Source of the DNA: an uncultured archaeon
GTDB taxonomy: Archaea; Halobacteriota; Methanosarcinia; Methanosarcinales; Methanoperedenaceae
DNA: 40,272 nucleotides
Direction: 5' to 3'
NCBI GenBank assembly: GCA_902386205.1
Contig: CABMIH010000029.1
Coordinates: 1-40,272 of the forward strand
The position numbers were made by a program, and so were the translations under genes. Under the pieces are notes generated by a model that searched no databases, had not been told where the DNA came from, and saw nothing but the letters and a program-made list of their open reading frames with translations. The stretch's first letter is position 1. Each line of letters starts with the position of its first letter. This document shows, piece after piece, positions 7,115-14,120 of this stretch.

Positions 7115-7930
7115 TCAAATCCCAATCCTTATGATAACTTCCCCACCTTCAGAAAACTGTTTGATACCATATTTCTGTGGTATTAATTTTATCCTTGGCT
7201 CATTAAAATAAAGACAGAAAGCAACCCCGCTACAATCTATCTTTTTGCCTCCTGCTATGATCTCAATCATTAAGATTTCAGGTCGAAAAAATCCCTGAGA
7301 CTTGATAATACCAAAAAATCCTTCTTCTGCGGCCACATAACCGTCAAGAAACCCGCCATCCAGGGAAAAACCCATGACATCACCGCATGTGTCGCAGTTG
7401 GCGGAAAGAAGAGAGTAACGATCATTTATTTCTTCAACACGGCATTCAAGTTCAAGGCTTCGGGATGAGGAAAGCCCGCTCCATTTGATACAGGGTTCAA
7501 GGCGCAAATTATTCGAAGCACGCAGGTAATCCCCAGGCTTCCTTACCTCCACATGCATCACCGGGTCATTCCAGAATGTGAAATAGCCGTTCCTGATAAA
7601 TGTCCCGATCCTGTCGCCTTTTGATACGGTTTTGCCTTTTGGCACGTCGGGTTTGATGTGAATTATCTTAATGACATATTTTCCCTGTCGGATCGCCAGG
7701 AGATATTCTGTAGAATTCCTGCCTTTGTATGGTGTGGGTGTTTCAAAACTCTGGATATCTATTATTTCCCCATCAACCGGTGAATACGCATCACCGCCAA
7801 ATTTTCCATAATATATATCCACGGCACTGAATGTCTTATGTGCAGCGTAAGGACTTTTCAAGAAAGAAAATCTTGAATTGTCGGGGGCAAAAATATGAAT
7901 ATCGTCATGGCTTGCTATCTTTTTCATCAT
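7115..7930 (-). CDS. M23/lysostaphin-like fold protein of unknown function
   Basis: A 271-residue protein whose central part has the layout of the M23/duplicated-hybrid-motif fold: DIYYGKFGGDAYSPVDGEI, then KGDRIGTFIRNG and a closing MHVEVRKPGDY. The usual M23 zinc ligands are only partly visible (the HVEV histidine), so peptidase activity is doubtful; a lipoyl/biotinyl-like hybrid-barrel role is an alternative. There is no signal peptide, so it is predicted cytoplasmic. A CDTCG pair in the C-terminal half could bind metal. It overlaps the upstream radical SAM gene by ATGA, so the two are probably functionally linked. Confidence 0.6.
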   Translation of the reverse strand: MMKKIASHDDIHIFAPDNSRFSFLKSPYAAHKTFSAVDIYYGKFGGDAYSPVDGEIIDIQSFETPTPYKGRNSTEYLLAIRQGKYVIKIIHIKPDVPKGKTVSKGDRIGTFIRNGYFTFWNDPVMHVEVRKPGDYLRASNNLRLEPCIKWSGLSSSRSLELECRVEEINDRYSLLSANCDTCGDVMGFSLDGGFLDGYVAAEEGFFGIIKSQGFFRPEILMIEIIAGGKKIDCSGVAFCLYFNEPRIKLIPQKYGIKQFSEGGEVIIRIGI

Positions 7931-8874
7931 ATCACTTTATAAGAACAGCACATTTTAGGGATCTCTTTGATATCCAGTCCAAGCTGCATGCTCGTTTCAT
8001 AGGCTTTTCTTGAAGGTACCGCTATCCTGTCGATGCCGCTCAATATCGCATACATATCAAGGATCGAGCGATAACGTCCCCCCGGCCGCACACAGCTTAA
8101 CGAAACGGGGACGTCGAACATCTCCCGCGCCTTTGTTATGACCCTGGCAACGTCACATATATCAGGCGGAGGGGTTCCTTGGGACAACGTCCTCTCAGTC
8201 GGGATGAAAACAACTATCACTATCACTGCGGGGTTGAATTTCTTAATTATTTCAAGGGCCCTGAATTCTCCTCTTAACTGGCCTTTATGCAATCCTGTAA
8301 TGATATGCGGAGCAAGCGGGATACCTGCTGATGATAATTCCCTCAGCGTCCGTTCATAATCCTCTACCCCGGCATCAAGGCCCAGGATATCGTGTATGGT
8401 ATCATCGTCCCCGATTACGTCAACGAGTGCCATATCAAGGTAATCCGAAAGCAGGCGGGCCTGGAAGCTGTTGACAATCCCCGTATGCGCGCTGATGTTA
8501 AGTCCTGTATCCTTCCTGATCTCCCGGATGGTTCCAGAGAACCTGTAAGTTGGAACACTACCGGCCGGGGCGCTTCCCCCGCTTAACAGTATCCCTTTTG
8601 ACCCTTTAGCCGCCAGGTTACATGCCAAGGAATATAAGTTCCCGAGAGAGCCGTCCAGCATGTGGCGCAGGTAATGCGAATTGCAATGCCAGCACTCAAG
8701 AGAGCATTGACTTCCTGTAAGAGATACAGGGGTAAAAGGCTCCCTGAAGAAACGGATGTCGTTCCCGAAGAGCTCCAGCCTGCGCGCAAACGCCCTGTGC
8801 ATGGATTCCCGTGTGCATGAATCGAGTTCCAGCGCATCGATCAGGTTCCTGGCCGGGTGCTCTCCGTAATGCAT
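7927..8874 (-). CDS. Radical SAM protein (BioB/LipS-like region), substrate unknown
   Basis: A 315-residue enzyme with the radical SAM cluster motif CSLECWHC (Cys57, Cys61, Cys64), a glycine-rich SAM loop (KGILLSGGSAP), and an overall TIM-barrel pattern. The compact length without a large accessory domain resembles biotin-synthase-like and archaeal lipoate-synthase (LipS) enzymes, but I cannot assign it. The C-terminus ends with a CC pair (PKMCCSY) that could ligate an auxiliary cluster. A TATA box (CTTATATAG) lies about 26 bp before the ATG, implying a nearly leaderless mRNA. Coupled by ATGA to the M23-like gene. Confidence 0.75.
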   Translation of the reverse strand: MHYGEHPARNLIDALELDSCTRESMHRAFARRLELFGNDIRFFREPFTPVSLTGSQCSLECWHCNSHYLRHMLDGSLGNLYSLACNLAAKGSKGILLSGGSAPAGSVPTYRFSGTIREIRKDTGLNISAHTGIVNSFQARLLSDYLDMALVDVIGDDDTIHDILGLDAGVEDYERTLRELSSAGIPLAPHIITGLHKGQLRGEFRALEIIKKFNPAVIVIVVFIPTERTLSQGTPPPDICDVARVITKAREMFDVPVSLSCVRPGGRYRSILDMYAILSGIDRIAVPSRKAYETSMQLGLDIKEIPKMCCSYKVI

Positions 8875-8982
8875 ATAATAGCTTTAGTGGTTTTGCTATA
8901 TAAGAAATTATCCGGCTGTTAGCCTGACTTTCTGTAGTTTAAGGATATGGATTAAATTGAATAACTGCAATTCTGTCATTTT

Positions 8983-9282
8983 TCATGATTCCAGCAGCCT
9001 TTCAACATATTCCAGCGACTTCTGCTGCTGTCTTAAACTCACGTTCCCCTTTATCCCATGTTCCATAAGCAGATCAAGCATCTCTCTCGGGCTTACATCT
9101 GCAAGCTCTGAAGCCTCTCTTAAAGTTACCTTCTTATCCCTGTACAGATTTACGGCATACTCTCTCAAACCGAGCTTGATAAGCTGTCTTATGGCGTCAG
9201 ATTCGTCCACATCTTCTTTCTTTGCGCGATATCCTATCCTCGCAGATAGATCTTCAGGTAAACGTATTGTTTTAGTTATCAT
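8983..9282 (-). CDS. UPF0175-type antitoxin
   Basis: A 99-residue protein with an N-terminal ribbon-helix-helix-like segment (MITKTIRLPEDLSARIGYRA) and a C-terminal helical region (KVTLREASELADVSPREMLD) typical of UPF0175 proteins, which pair with PIN-like toxins. The start overlaps the end of the toxin gene by 11 nt, so expression is coupled. It would bind both the promoter and the toxin. The toxin-first order is the reverse of classical VapBC but is seen with this family. Confidence 0.75.
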   Translation of the reverse strand: MITKTIRLPEDLSARIGYRAKKEDVDESDAIRQLIKLGLREYAVNLYRDKKVTLREASELADVSPREMLDLLMEHGIKGNVSLRQQQKSLEYVERLLES

Positions 9283-9751
9283 TCTCTACCTCATCCATGG
9301 CCAAATGGTATTCTTCATCTGAAATAAATTCCTTCAAATTTCCTAAAAGTTCTCTTGATTCGCCTTTTTTGATCGCCCCTTTCTTTAGGAGGAATACAAT
9401 AATTGATGCCGGAGTTAAATAAGGTATATTGAGATTCTCAAGAAGATTTAGGAATTTGGCATCATCGCTTGATATCGCAGACGAGCTATCGTGCAGCATC
9501 AATACCTGAGCTTCACCACCTTTGATTCCCAGGCTTTTTACGAACGAGTTATTGGGAGGATTTTTTACCTTCAATAGGCCCCTATTAACATTCTCATGAA
9601 TTTTTATTGCATCGGGGAATTTGTTTTTGTTCTCCGTTGTTTCATTCATTACTGATGGCGGAATGCATACTTCTATATTATTAAGGACAATCTCTTTGGC
9701 GCCAGCTTTTGTCAGTTTGATCAATGAGTCTGAGTCCATCACGAGTTTCAT
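9272..9751 (-). CDS. PIN-domain-like toxin (DUF3368/VapC-type RNase)
   Basis: A 159-residue protein with PIN-fold acidic residues: Asp near the N-terminus (MDSDSLIKL), a Glu in SVMNETTE, GIKGGEAQVLML in the middle and an SSDDAKFLNLLE segment. These are the features of metal-dependent RNases of the VapC/DUF3368 type. ATG 9751 is chosen over an upstream in-frame start because MKLVMDSDSLI is the normal N-terminus. It forms a toxin-antitoxin pair with the overlapping downstream UPF0175 gene. Confidence 0.75.
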   Translation of the reverse strand: MKLVMDSDSLIKLTKAGAKEIVLNNIEVCIPPSVMNETTENKNKFPDAIKIHENVNRGLLKVKNPPNNSFVKSLGIKGGEAQVLMLHDSSSAISSDDAKFLNLLENLNIPYLTPASIIVFLLKKGAIKKGESRELLGNLKEFISDEEYHLAMDEVENDN

Positions 9752-9845
9752 GTATTCTAATGTATTAATTGCAATACATAAGACTTTCGTTATGATGAGT
9801 GTGCTTAGAGCCCAAAACCAATATATCCACATTTCTTCATCTGTT

Positions 9846-10001
9846 ATGTTGAAGGTCTATGGAAAAGACAATGAGATTGAAATGAAAAAAATTGAAAGCA
9901 CAGAGCCGTTATCACTTAAGGATTTGAAAGGTCTTGGCAAGGAAATATGGAAAGAAGTCGATGTTGAAGAGTATATTAAAAAGGAGCGGGAGAGCTGGTG
10001 A
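9846..10001 (+). CDS. Orphan antitoxin-like ORF (51 aa)
   Basis: The frame encodes a short charged protein whose tail (EVDVEEYIKKERESW) is typical of small archaeal antitoxins. The start could be ATG 9846 or the upstream ATGs at 9792/9795; none has a clear ribosome-binding site. A GTG overlaps the stop (TGGTGA), just where a partner PIN toxin would begin, but that frame stops after seven codons (VNSKSPT). This looks like an antitoxin whose toxin has been lost by a deletion near 10020. It is divergent from the intact toxin-antitoxin pair next door. Confidence 0.45.
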   Translation: MLKVYGKDNEIEMKKIESTEPLSLKDLKGLGKEIWKEVDVEEYIKKERESW

Positions 10002-10080
10002 ACTCTAAAAGTCCGACTTGACACAATGTGCGAATTCTTAAATCCAAGTGAAATTAAATGCCTCGTTTCAATGATCCGGG

Positions 10081-10797
10081 CTACCTCTTCACATTCCCCG
10101 CATGCAGCCCGCATTCCTTCTTTGTCGCATCCTCCCACCACCAGCGCCCTTCGCGCTCATGCTGGCCTGGAAGCACCGCCCGCGTGCACGGCTCGCACCC
10201 GATGCTGACAAATCCCTTTTCATGCAACTTGTTATAAGGGACATTGTTCTCCCTGATGTAATCCAAATCCTGCTTTGAACTCCAGTTCGCAAGCGGATTG
10301 AATTTTACAAGATTGCCGCTTCCGAAAGTGGGGTCTTTCTGGATCACGGGCACGTTCGCTCTTGTCCCCGGGCTCTGGTCTTTGCGCTGTCCTGTTATCC
10401 AGGCATCTACCGTATTGAGGGCGCGCTTGAGAGGGTCAACCTTTCGCACGTCGCAGCATTCCTTATGGCCGTCTTTATAGAAAGAGAACAAACCTTTTTC
10501 TTTTACGAGCTTTTCCGTAGCATCGCGATTAGCAAAGAAAACCTCGACATTGATATTGTAAGCATTCCTCACCTCTTCGATGAACTGGTAGGTCTCAGGA
10601 TGCAGGCGCCCCGTATCAAGAGTAAAAACCCGGAAGTTCTTGCCTGTTTTTTTTGCCATATCGACCAGCACCACATCCTCAGCCCCGCTGAACGAGATGG
10701 CGATGTTCTTGAAATTTCCAAGAGCTAATCCTATGATCTCCTGCGGAGAACTATTATCGTAATCTTTTGCTAATTTTTCAATATTAAATTCTGGCAT
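10081..10797 (-). CDS. cysH: Phosphoadenylyl-/adenylyl-sulfate reductase, CysH type
   Basis: A 238-residue thiol-dependent reductase that converts APS or PAPS to sulfite. The PP-loop motif is [14 protein letters not shown] and the conserved [12 protein letters not shown] follows. Two cysteine pairs (HKECCDVRK and GCEPCTRA) ligate a [4Fe-4S] cluster, which points to APS rather than PAPS as substrate. The catalytic cysteine is in KKECGLHAG near the C-terminus. It follows the sulfite reductase gene by 9 nt in an assimilatory sulfate-reduction operon. No ATP sulfurylase lies within the window. Confidence 0.9.
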
Positions 10798-10806
10798 ATA
10801 TTCACC

Positions 10807-11664
10807 CTATCCCAATATCTCATTCCTGAAGGTCTCAAACCCCACGCGGTCAAGGCAATCGCCAAACCTTTCGCCTACGTGGGTATTCTTTTTTGACCAG
10901 TTGATTATTTTCCTGAATATTGCGATCGCTTCCTGCGGGGATTTCGCATCTACCATTTCTTTCCCGAGCTTCGGATGCTTCCCGATCTTCCCGCCGACAA
11001 ATATTTTATAACCTTTCCATTCTTCGGAAATCAGGTCAGTCGGGCATGCCCCGACGCAGGCGCCGCAGAGGTTGCATTTATCCCAGAGTATCTTTGCTTT
11101 ATCGTCCTCGACGACAATGGCTTTTTCAGGACACATGAATGTGCACGTCCCGCAGCCTGTGCAGTCCTCTGTATATATGGCAGGCTTAAGCACTCCCATC
11201 AACCCAAGATCGTTCTCCTGCGGCTTTGCGCACGCATTCGGGCAGCCTGTTACTGCGAATTTTATTTTTACAGGCATATCCTCTCCAAAGAACTCCTTGT
11301 CCAGCATGCCGCCCAGACTGTATGTATCGATTATGCCGTAATTGCACTCTAAGCTTCCCGGACATGAGATTATATTGCGCACGCGCGGTCCGCATGAACC
11401 CGGCGGCGTGCCGTTATCTTCAAGCTCCTTGGTGATGGCATCGAGTTGATGGATATCCACATTTGGTATCTGTATTCCCTGGCGTGTGGTGATATGAACG
11501 TATCCCGTGCCGTATTTTTTTGCCAGGCGGCTGATCCCGGAAAGCTGCTCACACGTTACATTTCCGCAGGGCATGCGCAATCTGACAACAAAAAGATCTT
11601 TTTGCCGCTGTTTCATGTAACCGGATTTTTTTAAGGATGCAACGTCAAGTTTTTCAAGGCTCAT
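10807..11664 (-). CDS. Siroheme sulfite reductase with two ferredoxin clusters, small methanogen type
   Basis: A 285-residue protein. Siroheme/[4Fe-4S] ligands appear as CPGSLEC and TGCPNACAKP. An inserted ferredoxin domain follows with two complete CxxCxxCxxxCP motifs (CTGCGTCTFMCP and CNLCGACVGACP). This is the compact, single-gene dissimilatory-like sulfite reductase known from methanogens, reducing sulfite to sulfide by six electrons, presumably from ferredoxin. First gene of the operon with the CysH-type reductase. It does not carry the F420H2-oxidising domain of Fsr. Related enzymes can also reduce nitrite, so substrate is inferred from the neighbour. Confidence 0.88.
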   Translation of the reverse strand: MSLEKLDVASLKKSGYMKQRQKDLFVVRLRMPCGNVTCEQLSGISRLAKKYGTGYVHITTRQGIQIPNVDIHQLDAITKELEDNGTPPGSCGPRVRNIISCPGSLECNYGIIDTYSLGGMLDKEFFGEDMPVKIKFAVTGCPNACAKPQENDLGLMGVLKPAIYTEDCTGCGTCTFMCPEKAIVVEDDKAKILWDKCNLCGACVGACPTDLISEEWKGYKIFVGGKIGKHPKLGKEMVDAKSPQEAIAIFRKIINWSKKNTHVGERFGDCLDRVGFETFRNEILG

Positions 11665-11677
11665 GGTAATCCTCGAT

Positions 11678-11731
11678 ATTCTGGATGATATTTATAATTC
11701 TGGATGTTGCTTAATAATTAAGGCTTAAATA
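11678..11731 (-). promoter_or_regulatory. Sulfite reductase promoter with direct repeats and palindrome
   Basis: Reading the minus strand, a TATA-like ATTTAAG lies at 11730-11724. It is followed by the perfect palindrome CTTAATAATTAAG (11722-11710). Two exact copies of ATTCTGGATG (plus-strand sense, 11697-11706 and 11678-11687) are spaced 19 bp apart, about two helix turns. The repeats fall at or just after the expected transcription start, a usual place for a repressor operator. Confidence 0.45.
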
Positions 11732-11845
11732 TACCTGATGATTGAGGCAATATCTGTTAATTATGGATTGCTGGAATCAGCAATTCATTCATCTATCGGA
11801 TATGTCGCTCCTGAAAAATTTGGAAAGCACTCCATTATAATTTAA

Positions 11846-12235
11846 TCATTCTATTATTATTTTATATACCTTCTTATCCACAGCTTCTTTTTCCCATGGT
11901 CTCTTGTATATAAATACTATTTCGGTTTCCCCATTCTTTATAGCTTGAAATTCAAATCTTTCTTTGCCACCTGCTCCTACACTTTTTGATGATGGCTCGA
12001 ATTTTTTCCAATTTAATTTAATATAATTTGTATCAAGCTGAGATTCCCACGTATATCCAGTAGTTGGATTTCCATTAAAAAATATTGTAAAATTCTCTCC
12101 ATGTTTAATTTTCAATGTTGCCATCTCATCACCTCGAAGCTCAGTCTGTCTTTGTTCTTGTATTACGATTGCTATGATAAAAATAAGGAATAAAATAACA
12201 CCTATTATATATAAGTTTCTTAAAGATATAGGCAT
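11846..12235 (-). CDS. Chagasin-type cysteine protease inhibitor (I42), possibly membrane-anchored
   Basis: A 129-residue protein with the three chagasin binding loops: NPTTGYTW, GAGGKERFEF and YKRPWE. The long form (ATG 12235) begins with one membrane segment (LYIIGVILFLIFIIAIVI) after an arginine, predicted to place the inhibitor outside the cell. An internal ATG at 12124 has a much better ribosome-binding site (GAGGTGAT, 12135-12128) and would give a 92-residue cytosolic form containing all three loops. Both forms may be made. Its likely target is the C1A protease encoded 0.8 kb away in the same orientation. Confidence 0.85.
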   Translation of the reverse strand: MPISLRNLYIIGVILFLIFIIAIVIQEQRQTELRGDEMATLKIKHGENFTIFFNGNPTTGYTWESQLDTNYIKLNWKKFEPSSKSVGAGGKERFEFQAIKNGETEIVFIYKRPWEKEAVDKKVYKIIIE

Positions 12236-12341
12236 TCGCTAAATATAAAATAGCTTTGTAGTGTATATATATTATTGGATTTTCAACCGTTAGAAACACT
12301 TAAATATGGTCAGCACCCAATGATTTATAGGAGATGTTGAT
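12236..12341. promoter_or_regulatory. Divergent promoter between chagasin and propeptide-like genes
   Basis: TA-rich ATATATATA near 12262-12272 sits about 30 bp before the long-form chagasin ATG on the minus strand. ACTTAAATATGG near 12297-12308 serves as TATA box for the plus-strand gene at 12342, which also has AGGAGATG (12329-12336) as ribosome-binding site. The shared 106-bp spacer means two candidate inhibitors of one protease can be co-regulated. Confidence 0.45.
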
Positions 12342-12539
12342 ATGACCGAAGAAGAGCTTTCTGAAGAAGAAATACAAAAAGAGATAGAGAAGAAAAAGTT
12401 GCGATGGAAAGCTGGTAAGACAAGTATGTCTGAACTATCACCTGAAGAACAGAGAAAGAGATTGGGGATCATACCTACAAAAGAGCAAGAGGAGTTAATC
12501 CAAGAAAAGGCTAGAAAAAAGAAAAAAGGCGAGGAGTAG
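12342..12539 (+). CDS. Standalone protease-propeptide-like protein (65 aa)
   Basis: A highly charged, helical 65-residue protein. Residues about 8-45 align with residues about 9-50 of the nearby cysteine protease: KKKLRWKAGKTSMSELSPEE here against KEKKIRWQAERTSVSGLSEQ there, then K-x-LG in both. Papain-family propeptides block the active site, and free propeptide-like proteins (CTLA-2/BCPI type) act as inhibitors in other organisms, so an inhibitor or chaperone role is a reasonable inference. Strong ribosome-binding site AGGAGATG. It ends 2 nt before the convergent C-terminal-domain gene. Confidence 0.75.
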   Translation: MTEEELSEEEIQKEIEKKKLRWKAGKTSMSELSPEEQRKRLGIIPTKEQEELIQEKARKKKKGEE

Positions 12540-12541
12540 TC

Positions 12542-12994
12542 TTAGAACTGCTTCCAACACCTCAAATAGTAAATAACATCGTTGTCATCATACCATACAT
12601 ACAGCCACGTTGCTTCCATGATGACTTTTGCGATACCAACTATTTCAGCATCGCTGAGATATTTGTATTGCCATGTATCCCCCACATAAGCCCACAATAC
12701 CCTGTAATCAGAGTTGCAATCGTAATCAATCAACACATAAGAAGCCCAGCCTTCGCCAGCCCCAGCAGTTCGGCCTGCCCTTGGAGCTCCGGGGGGGACC
12801 TTCTCCGTCGCTTTAAGGGGTGGAGCTTCAGGTAGAGCTACTTTTGGAATCCTGCTGGCAGGACCCTTCTTTTTCTCTGCCACCTTGGGAGGTGGGGCTT
12901 CAGGTAGAGCTACCTTTCTAGCACCAGCCGCTGCACGCTGTTGTTTCAATTTATTTGCTAATTCTTTCATAATAGTTTCTTCAGTTTTATCCAT
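12542..12994 (-). CDS. Standalone copy of the protease C-terminal domain with Pro/Ala-rich linker
   Basis: A 150-residue protein. Residues 1-25 are a charged helix. Residues 26-80 are a low-complexity Pro/Ala/Lys linker containing the repeat PKVALPEAPP/KVALPEAPPL. Residues 81-150 match residues 300-367 of the cysteine protease encoded just upstream (shared blocks DYDCNSD, RVLWAY, YKYL, GIAK). The two genes are also very similar at the DNA level there, so this is a tandem duplication. ATG 12994 follows AGGAGACGA and lies 22 nt after the protease stop, in one operon. The domain's function is unknown; substrate or partner binding is inferred. Confidence 0.8.
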   Translation of the reverse strand: MDKTEETIMKELANKLKQQRAAAGARKVALPEAPPPKVAEKKKGPASRIPKVALPEAPPLKATEKVPPGAPRAGRTAGAGEGWASYVLIDYDCNSDYRVLWAYVGDTWQYKYLSDAEIVGIAKVIMEATWLYVWYDDNDVIYYLRCWKQF

Positions 12995-13016
12995 GATTAT
13001 CGTCTCCTTTTTTTCT

Positions 13017-14120
13017 TTATTTTATTCCACTGATGTAGGTCAATTGATCCTCTTTCCAGTAGACATAGACACTGCACGATTCCATTAGCAACTTCGCTAT
13101 TCCCGCTACTTCGTCATCAGTGAGGTATTTGTACCGCCATGCATCCCCGGCATAAGCCCACAATACCCTGTTATCGGAGTTGCAATCATAGTCAACCAGT
13201 ATATACTGAGCGTAGCCGTTTCCCTCAGGCGATGGAACTTCCATATTCCACATTCCAAAGCCATCGTCCATACCGCATTGGCCATAGGCAATTCTGAAAT
13301 ATCCGCTTTCACCCCAGCCAGGTCCCCAGCTATTCTTGCAGATCCAGCAAGCGTTTGTATCGTCGTAACCTACAACAGATATACAATGGTAGCCTGCCAG
13401 ATCTCCATAGGCGTATTCATAGATTCCAGATGAATAGTAGAAGAAATCTTCATATACAGCCATGCCTGTAATTTGGGGCCCATTATTGGCTAGATTATCC
13501 TTCATTGTATTGACGTCTAAAGTATTGGCCCAGTTCGTAATCTTTGTGTGATCTATTCTGTCTGTCCAATCTGAACATGTGTTAGCACAGCTTACCCCTG
13601 AGTCTTGGTATGGAAAACAGTCTTCGTCAGGAACGCCGTTGTTTTTCAGGTAATTGCAGGCATCATCCATATACCAGCCTGAATTACAACAGTCTCCACA
13701 GCCACAATAGAATAGGTGTGCTTCAGATAGGTCGATGTTAATACTGGCATCATTATAAGTACGTATTTTCAGCAGCGCCTCCAGAGTTGCGACAGTACCG
13801 AAAGCCACACAAGATCCACAGCCCCCCTGGTCCTTGACTGGAGTCGTCCAATCTGCGCCATTCACGTTTCTCCAGTCTATGCTATCTGGAAGCCCAACAG
13901 CAGGTTTATATTTTAACTTTTTGATTGCACGGATTTCAGGTCTATCGAGACTCAGTCTTGAGACCATTTGTTTCTGTTTATCAGTTAGTTTGAGGCCGAG
14001 CTTCATTTTCTTCTCCTGTTCGCTCAATCCAGAAACGCTTGTTCGTTCAGCTTGCCATCTGATTTTTTTTTCTTTAATCTTTGCTCTAATTCCATTTAGA
14101 GAGGTTATTTCATTATTCAT
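13017..14120 (-). CDS. Papain-family (C1A) cysteine protease with extra C-terminal domain
   Basis: From ATG 14120 the protein has 367 residues. Residues 1-70 are a charged propeptide-like helix region. Residues 75-295 are the papain fold with oxyanion Gln98 and nucleophile Cys104 (DQGGCGSCVAF, with Val where Trp is usual), His245 (GYHCISVVGYD) and Asn263 (CKNSWGPGWG). Residues 300-367 form an extra domain repeated in the next gene. Many paired cysteines suggest disulfides, yet no signal peptide is seen, so location is uncertain. A TTG start at 14150 is possible. It is flanked by two candidate inhibitors. Confidence 0.92.
   Translation of the reverse strand: MNNEITSLNGIRAKIKEKKIRWQAERTSVSGLSEQEKKMKLGLKLTDKQKQMVSRLSLDRPEIRAIKKLKYKPAVGLPDSIDWRNVNGADWTTPVKDQGGCGSCVAFGTVATLEALLKIRTYNDASINIDLSEAHLFYCGCGDCCNSGWYMDDACNYLKNNGVPDEDCFPYQDSGVSCANTCSDWTDRIDHTKITNWANTLDVNTMKDNLANNGPQITGMAVYEDFFYYSSGIYEYAYGDLAGYHCISVVGYDDTNACWICKNSWGPGWGESGYFRIAYGQCGMDDGFGMWNMEVPSPEGNGYAQYILVDYDCNSDNRVLWAYAGDAWRYKYLTDDEVAGIAKLLMESCSVYVYWKEDQLTYISGIK

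Follow-up and report, generated by a model that had tools for sequence, protein, structure and literature searches.

A papain-like protease, a stalked copy of its C-terminal domain and two types of candidate inhibitor in a Methanoperedenaceae genome: an archaeal form of a recurrent, probable protease-control cassette

Genes and organization of the island

The window analysed here, a stretch of 40,272 nucleotides (nt) from an uncultured archaeon of the Methanoperedenaceae (contig CABMIH010000029.1), carries at positions 11846-14120 a C1A papain-like protease, a free-standing homologue of its propeptide, a stalk protein ending in a second copy of the protease C-terminal domain (C-dom) and an inhibitor of the chagasin family. 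A sequence-only reading had placed these four modules there, and Pfam and homology searches confirmed all four genes, with corrected starts and strands (Table 1). The island is an archaeal form of a recurrent cassette, probably one for protease control, and not a local oddity. The protease and stalk genes are encoded on the same strand, 22 nt apart, while the free propeptide gene is convergent with the stalk gene across a gap of 2 nt; the chagasin gene lies beyond it and has its own upstream region. The four genes are thus not one operon, and a sequence resembling a ribosome-binding site precedes each of them. Neither Rfam features nor tRNA genes were found in the window, and a consensus promoter scan gave no excess over shuffled sequences.

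Table 1. Coordinates of the island genes and of their domains within the window (aa, amino acids).
Feature	Position	Strand	Remarks
Chagasin (I42)	11846..12124 (listed open reading frame to 12235)	-	92 aa; PF09394 Inhibitor_I42, E 1.4e-22; PDB amoebiasin-1, E 8.9e-12
Free propeptide, predicted trans-acting inhibitor	12342..12539	+	65 aa; AGGAGAT six bases 5' of ATG
Stalk protein	12542..12994	-	150 aa; charged N-terminal leader, Pro/Lys-rich linker, C-terminal C-dom
C-dom of stalk protein	12545..12754	-	homology to protease C-terminus
C1A papain-like protease	13017..14120 (ATG 14120, stop 13017)	-	367 aa; PF00112 Peptidase_C1, E 2.4e-45
C-dom of protease (window type)	13020..13208	-	homologous to stalk copy and to both C-doms of L122 (Bathyarchaeota)
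Propeptide segment of protease	13899..14117	-	aligned with 33 other propeptides

The protease consists of a propeptide (residues ~1-72), a catalytic domain (~77-285) and the C-dom (~299-366). It keeps papain Gln19, Cys25, His159 and Asn175, which together with the PF00112 match place it in Peptidase C1A (papain), with predicted proteolytic activity; the same catalytic residues are retained in 49-50 of 50 cassette proteases. When its propeptide was aligned with the 33 others, Trp and Gly were invariant and the Leu of an LG pair nearly so. No signal peptide was visible in the N-terminal sequences of this or of the cassette proteases. With respect to the S2 pocket, papain positions 134 and 160 are both Cys in 46/50 cassette proteases and Gly134/Cys160 in the window; redox control is possible. 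The same genome also encodes another chagasin and another C1A protease, each on a different contig (G000:C41:73228-73470 and G000:C44:10552-11235).

Recurrence of the cassette and its shared domain

A first scan of genome contigs with the window protease alone gave no matches, and a profile scan gave at least 80 loci. The locus counts from the latter are lower bounds; its query contained the C-dom, so the ranking favours C-dom loci, and chagasin was absent from it. Among the loci listed, 49 foreign loci from archaea and many bacterial phyla have a protease with C-dom, and in 46 of them both a stalk C-dom gene and chagasin lie beside it. As for the three exceptions, two end at a contig edge and the third, L107, has the stalk gene and no chagasin on a short contig. 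Chagasin, a rare gene found in 1/14 control genomes, also lies nearby in 16 of the 31 remaining listed loci, which there have no C-dom. The co-occurrence elsewhere on which the sequence-only reading had staked its proposal was therefore found, for these three genes and, in two archaea, for the free propeptide beside the protease. No further conserved neighbour was detected beyond the three cassette genes. The same three are present in Methanoculleus sediminis, and on a Deinococcus plasmid the genes for protease, a 136-aa C-dom protein, chagasin and caspase stand in a row. On this plasmid (L061), two caspase-domain genes follow the cassette, at 7898-10255 and 11346-13008.

The last 64 residues of the stalk protein are 56% identical to the protease C-terminus (E 5.9e-21, whole-genome search), and between the two C-doms the identity is 54%. 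In the main family the C-dom has about 72 aa, and it matched nothing in Pfam, NCBIfam, PADLOC or the PDB sequences. Its AlphaFold model is confident (pLDDT 96.5), with the order b-b-b-a-b-b, and the best structural matches were enterotoxin B subunits (LT-IIb B: Z 11.0, 76/76 residues aligned, Foldseek TM 0.81), SilF, CipA (Z 9.9) and the protein-glutaminase prosegment. The main family is consequently predicted to adopt an OB fold; it must be noted that this fold is common and that its likeness to enterotoxin B subunits shows no function. The model of the window C-dom has the same order at low confidence (pLDDT 68.7). It is tied to the main family by position, by pairing and by pattern, not by a significant profile match. 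Besides its homology to the C-doms of L122, the window type is also related to L121 (Methanosarcina).

In the C-dom tree the copies mostly cluster by role, protease copies apart from stalk copies, and the duplication is therefore old. The sequence-only reading had seen the parts of one enzyme dispersed into separate genes; since the two C-doms of most lineages fall in separate old clades, that view was not supported in this form, and a simple dispersal from this single enzyme does not account for the parts. The exceptions are the window type and L107, whose two copies group with each other, inside one genome or close to it, as would be expected if domains that function together are homogenised.

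The linkers of the cassette stalk proteins look disordered, being rich in Ala, Pro, Thr, Gly and Ser, and 36 of 40 non-redundant proteins carry at least one copy of the motif P-[TS]-L-x-P-P. After shuffling, 3.7 of 40 carried it on average and 10 at most, and shuffles keeping PP pairs intact gave 7.5 on average and 16 at most; no other motif spacing was enriched in the linkers. The window stalk protein, which has no Pfam match, shows two KVALPEAPP repeats in place of this motif. Its leader recurs in the second gene of L122 and in that of L121, where it is fused to DUF6345 instead of to a C-dom. Small proteins of short tandem repeats, with repeats that differ between them, are encoded after the protease in L103 (9993-10388), L107 (1451-1816) and L166 (5356-5814), and those of L103 and L166 precede chagasin.

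With respect to its origin, the island was probably acquired, because no close relative of the window protease was found in 30 other species of the genus, some of which gave only distant C1A matches; vertical inheritance within the genus was rejected on the same result. A viral origin was rejected as well, there being no relatives among viral contigs and only two weak catalytic-domain matches in phages. Elsewhere in the window, two small overlapping genes at 8983-9282 and 9272-9832 resemble a toxin-antitoxin pair whose toxin is PIN-like, judging by the look of the sequence.

The two candidate inhibitors

The window chagasin is a member of family I42 by its PF09394 match and by all three inhibitory loops (NPTTG, GxGG and RPW), as defined in PMC2607524, and it would inhibit a C1A protease. 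The listed open reading frame begins with a membrane-like stretch. ATG 12124 is the likelier start, because GAGGTGA lies four bases upstream and a Met stands at the same place in other cassette chagasins, and it would give a 92-aa protein with no anchor; a membrane-anchored chagasin was therefore set aside as a likely start-codon artefact. Most cassette chagasins likewise lack a signal peptide, with a Met conserved close to the start of the domain.

The free propeptide matches protease residues 5-55 (35% identity, E 4.6e-4, whole-genome search) and carries the motif W-x-A-G-x-T...L-S-x-x-E...L-G. Its only match in PDB, a weak one, was crammer (E 0.31), and its Trp aligned with crammer W53, which is required for inhibition and not for folding (PMC3551606); an LG pair is essential in BCPI (PMC4089206). 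Since both correspond, the free propeptide is likely to act as an inhibitor. It is a free-standing homologue of the protease proregion, as are the I29 propeptide-like inhibitors (crammer, CTLA-2alpha and BCPI), with Trp and LG motif in common; unlike them, it is prokaryotic, shorter and without a match to the Pfam I29 model, while Propeptide_C1 matched weakly in 3/34 members (best 0.017).

Among 393 genomes of the phylum, a stand-alone propeptide was found only in the window. It also adjoins the protease in two other archaeal assemblies, L122 and L133, and Trp and LG are kept in the free propeptides of all three distant archaea. In L122 it occupies the slot after the stalk gene, in the order and orientation of the window. 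A single origin of these proteins was considered and not retained, given that the tree of these short sequences lacks resolution and the three group together in none of its bootstrap trees. Chagasin was not detectable in the L122 and L133 assemblies, and for this reason the two inhibitors look interchangeable; the window holds both types.

Proposed mechanism, alternatives and meaning

The reading that we consider rather probable is that dedicated inhibitors lock a zymogen protease, which co-assembles with its stalk partner through the shared C-doms; control of the protease by inhibitors was already part of the sequence-only reading. The enzyme, whose active site is intact and which has no signal peptide, would be produced as a zymogen, and chagasin, the free propeptide or both would block any of it that turns active prematurely or where it should not. 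The stalk partner has its paralogous C-dom, for which an OB fold is predicted in the main family, at the tip of a stalk that looks disordered and bears motifs; through it the partner would most likely co-assemble with the protease C-dom and localise, scaffold or present the protease. A putative trigger or change of compartment would then free the protease from its inhibitor to act on a putative target. Far more tentatively, an OB-domain protease and several stalked OB partners may form a mixed ring or scaffold, kept off by chagasin or a free propeptide until a signal bound to the stalk fires it; such a widespread three-part machine would be a class of effector assembly with no described counterpart.

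In favour of the locked zymogen are the recurrence of stalk gene and chagasin beside the protease despite the rarity of chagasin, the retained catalytic residues and inhibitory loops, the free propeptide next to the protease in two assemblies without detectable chagasin, its Trp and LG pair, the clustering of C-doms by role and the linker motif. Distances between catalytic domain, the two C-doms and chagasin are also correlated (0/2000 permutations as high). Several observations weigh against it. Permutation tests of this type cannot tell physical interaction from joint inheritance. The window C-dom has a weak model with no fold match, and its hhalign probability against the main C-dom family is only 6-8%. 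The free propeptide is known from three genomes only, and in the subtype to which the window belongs no other locus is known with chagasin next to the protease. Some chagasin reading frames, as called, bear signal-like N-terminal extensions. In addition, the papain disulfide cysteines Cys22/Cys63 are kept, and Cys56/Cys95 occur in 40/50 proteases and are retained or lost together; these cysteines would suit an oxidising compartment better than the cytosol, at odds with the absence of a signal peptide.

This last tension feeds the idea, which we regard as unlikely, that the protease is an effector which leaves the cell by a non-Sec route or upon lysis and whose targets are other cells or prey; chagasin and free propeptide would then protect the producing cell in the manner of staphostatins and Spi, and the stalk protein would serve as carrier or targeting subunit. 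Besides the cysteines, it would account for inhibitors that mostly lack signal peptides and agrees with the resemblance of the C-dom fold to surface-binding enterotoxin B subunits. However, the proteases have no signal peptide either, the covariation of the cysteines may reflect one loss in Actinobacteria, and no conserved secretion gene was found beside the cassette. Contractile injection systems were rejected as a general export route, because the contractile-sheath family was present in 9 of the 19 genomes tested and not found in the other 10. The genome of the window itself has a match to this family in an 883-aa frame (G000:C57:93280-93792).

An internal conflict or regulated-death switch would have the stalk C-dom recruit the protease C-dom to a sensor upon infection or stress, displacing the inhibitor. 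The same small domain on an effector and on a neighbouring gene product is the pattern that defines effector-associated domains (EADs; PMC7159879), and it is found here; the caspase-family genes after the Deinococcus cassette, the second gene of Methanosarcina L121, with a DUF6345 domain in place of the C-dom, and the patchy distribution across phyla point the same way. Unlike EAD systems, the cassette has no conserved NTPase, vWA or MoxR core or other sensor beside it, its partner is only a stalk plus a domain, and it includes a dedicated chagasin. Neither a match to the PADLOC protein models nor a conserved defence neighbour was found, and the caspases are not general. We regard such a switch as unlikely, and the roles put forward by the sequence-only reading (defence, programmed lysis or predation control) are putative.

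The strong conservation and fixed spacing of the linker motif, as well as the other small repeat proteins beside the protease in L103, L107 and L166, could suggest that the protease cuts the stalk protein at PxxxPP or other repeated motifs and releases a peptide or the C-dom. This is improbable, given that Pro next to the scissile bond is generally unfavourable for papain-like enzymes and that the motif varies between lineages. Finally, it is very improbable that the free propeptide is a functionless remnant of a chance duplication, as its presence in so few genomes, its weak identity to the parent propeptide and the ungrouped tree could indicate, in view of its intact reading frame with ribosome-binding site, the gene order shared with L122 and the W and LG conserved in three distant archaea.

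The closest known systems in the logic of the locked zymogen are SpeB-Spi of Streptococcus and staphopain-staphostatin of Staphylococcus, in which the gene of a papain-fold protease stands by that of a small dedicated inhibitor which presumably protects the cytoplasm; Spi is described as a propeptide analogue (PMC2873492, PMC3462683). The cassette shares this arrangement in 46/49 listed loci, with a putative inhibition. Unlike those secreted C10 and C47 proteases, its enzyme is C1A and has no signal peptide, its inhibitor is chagasin, and it has an extra stalk partner sharing the protease C-dom. Enterotoxin B subunits and CipA, the latter consisting of an N-terminal arm and a self-assembling OB domain (PMC9530169), resemble the main-family C-dom in predicted fold; unlike them, the C-dom has neither a sequence match nor a signal peptide, and the likeness comes from the predicted fold alone, with no evidence of ring formation or sugar binding. 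Searches of open-access literature gave no paper on the cassette, which is weak evidence of absence. The new parts are the stalk partner with a duplicated C-dom, the pairing of C1A protease and chagasin, and the breadth across domains of life.

These results define a C-dom family that is absent from Pfam, together with a novel short linear motif; the cassette proteins are small and probably soluble. Prokaryotic chagasin gains a clear candidate cognate protease, and prokaryotic free propeptides become candidates for natural inhibitors.
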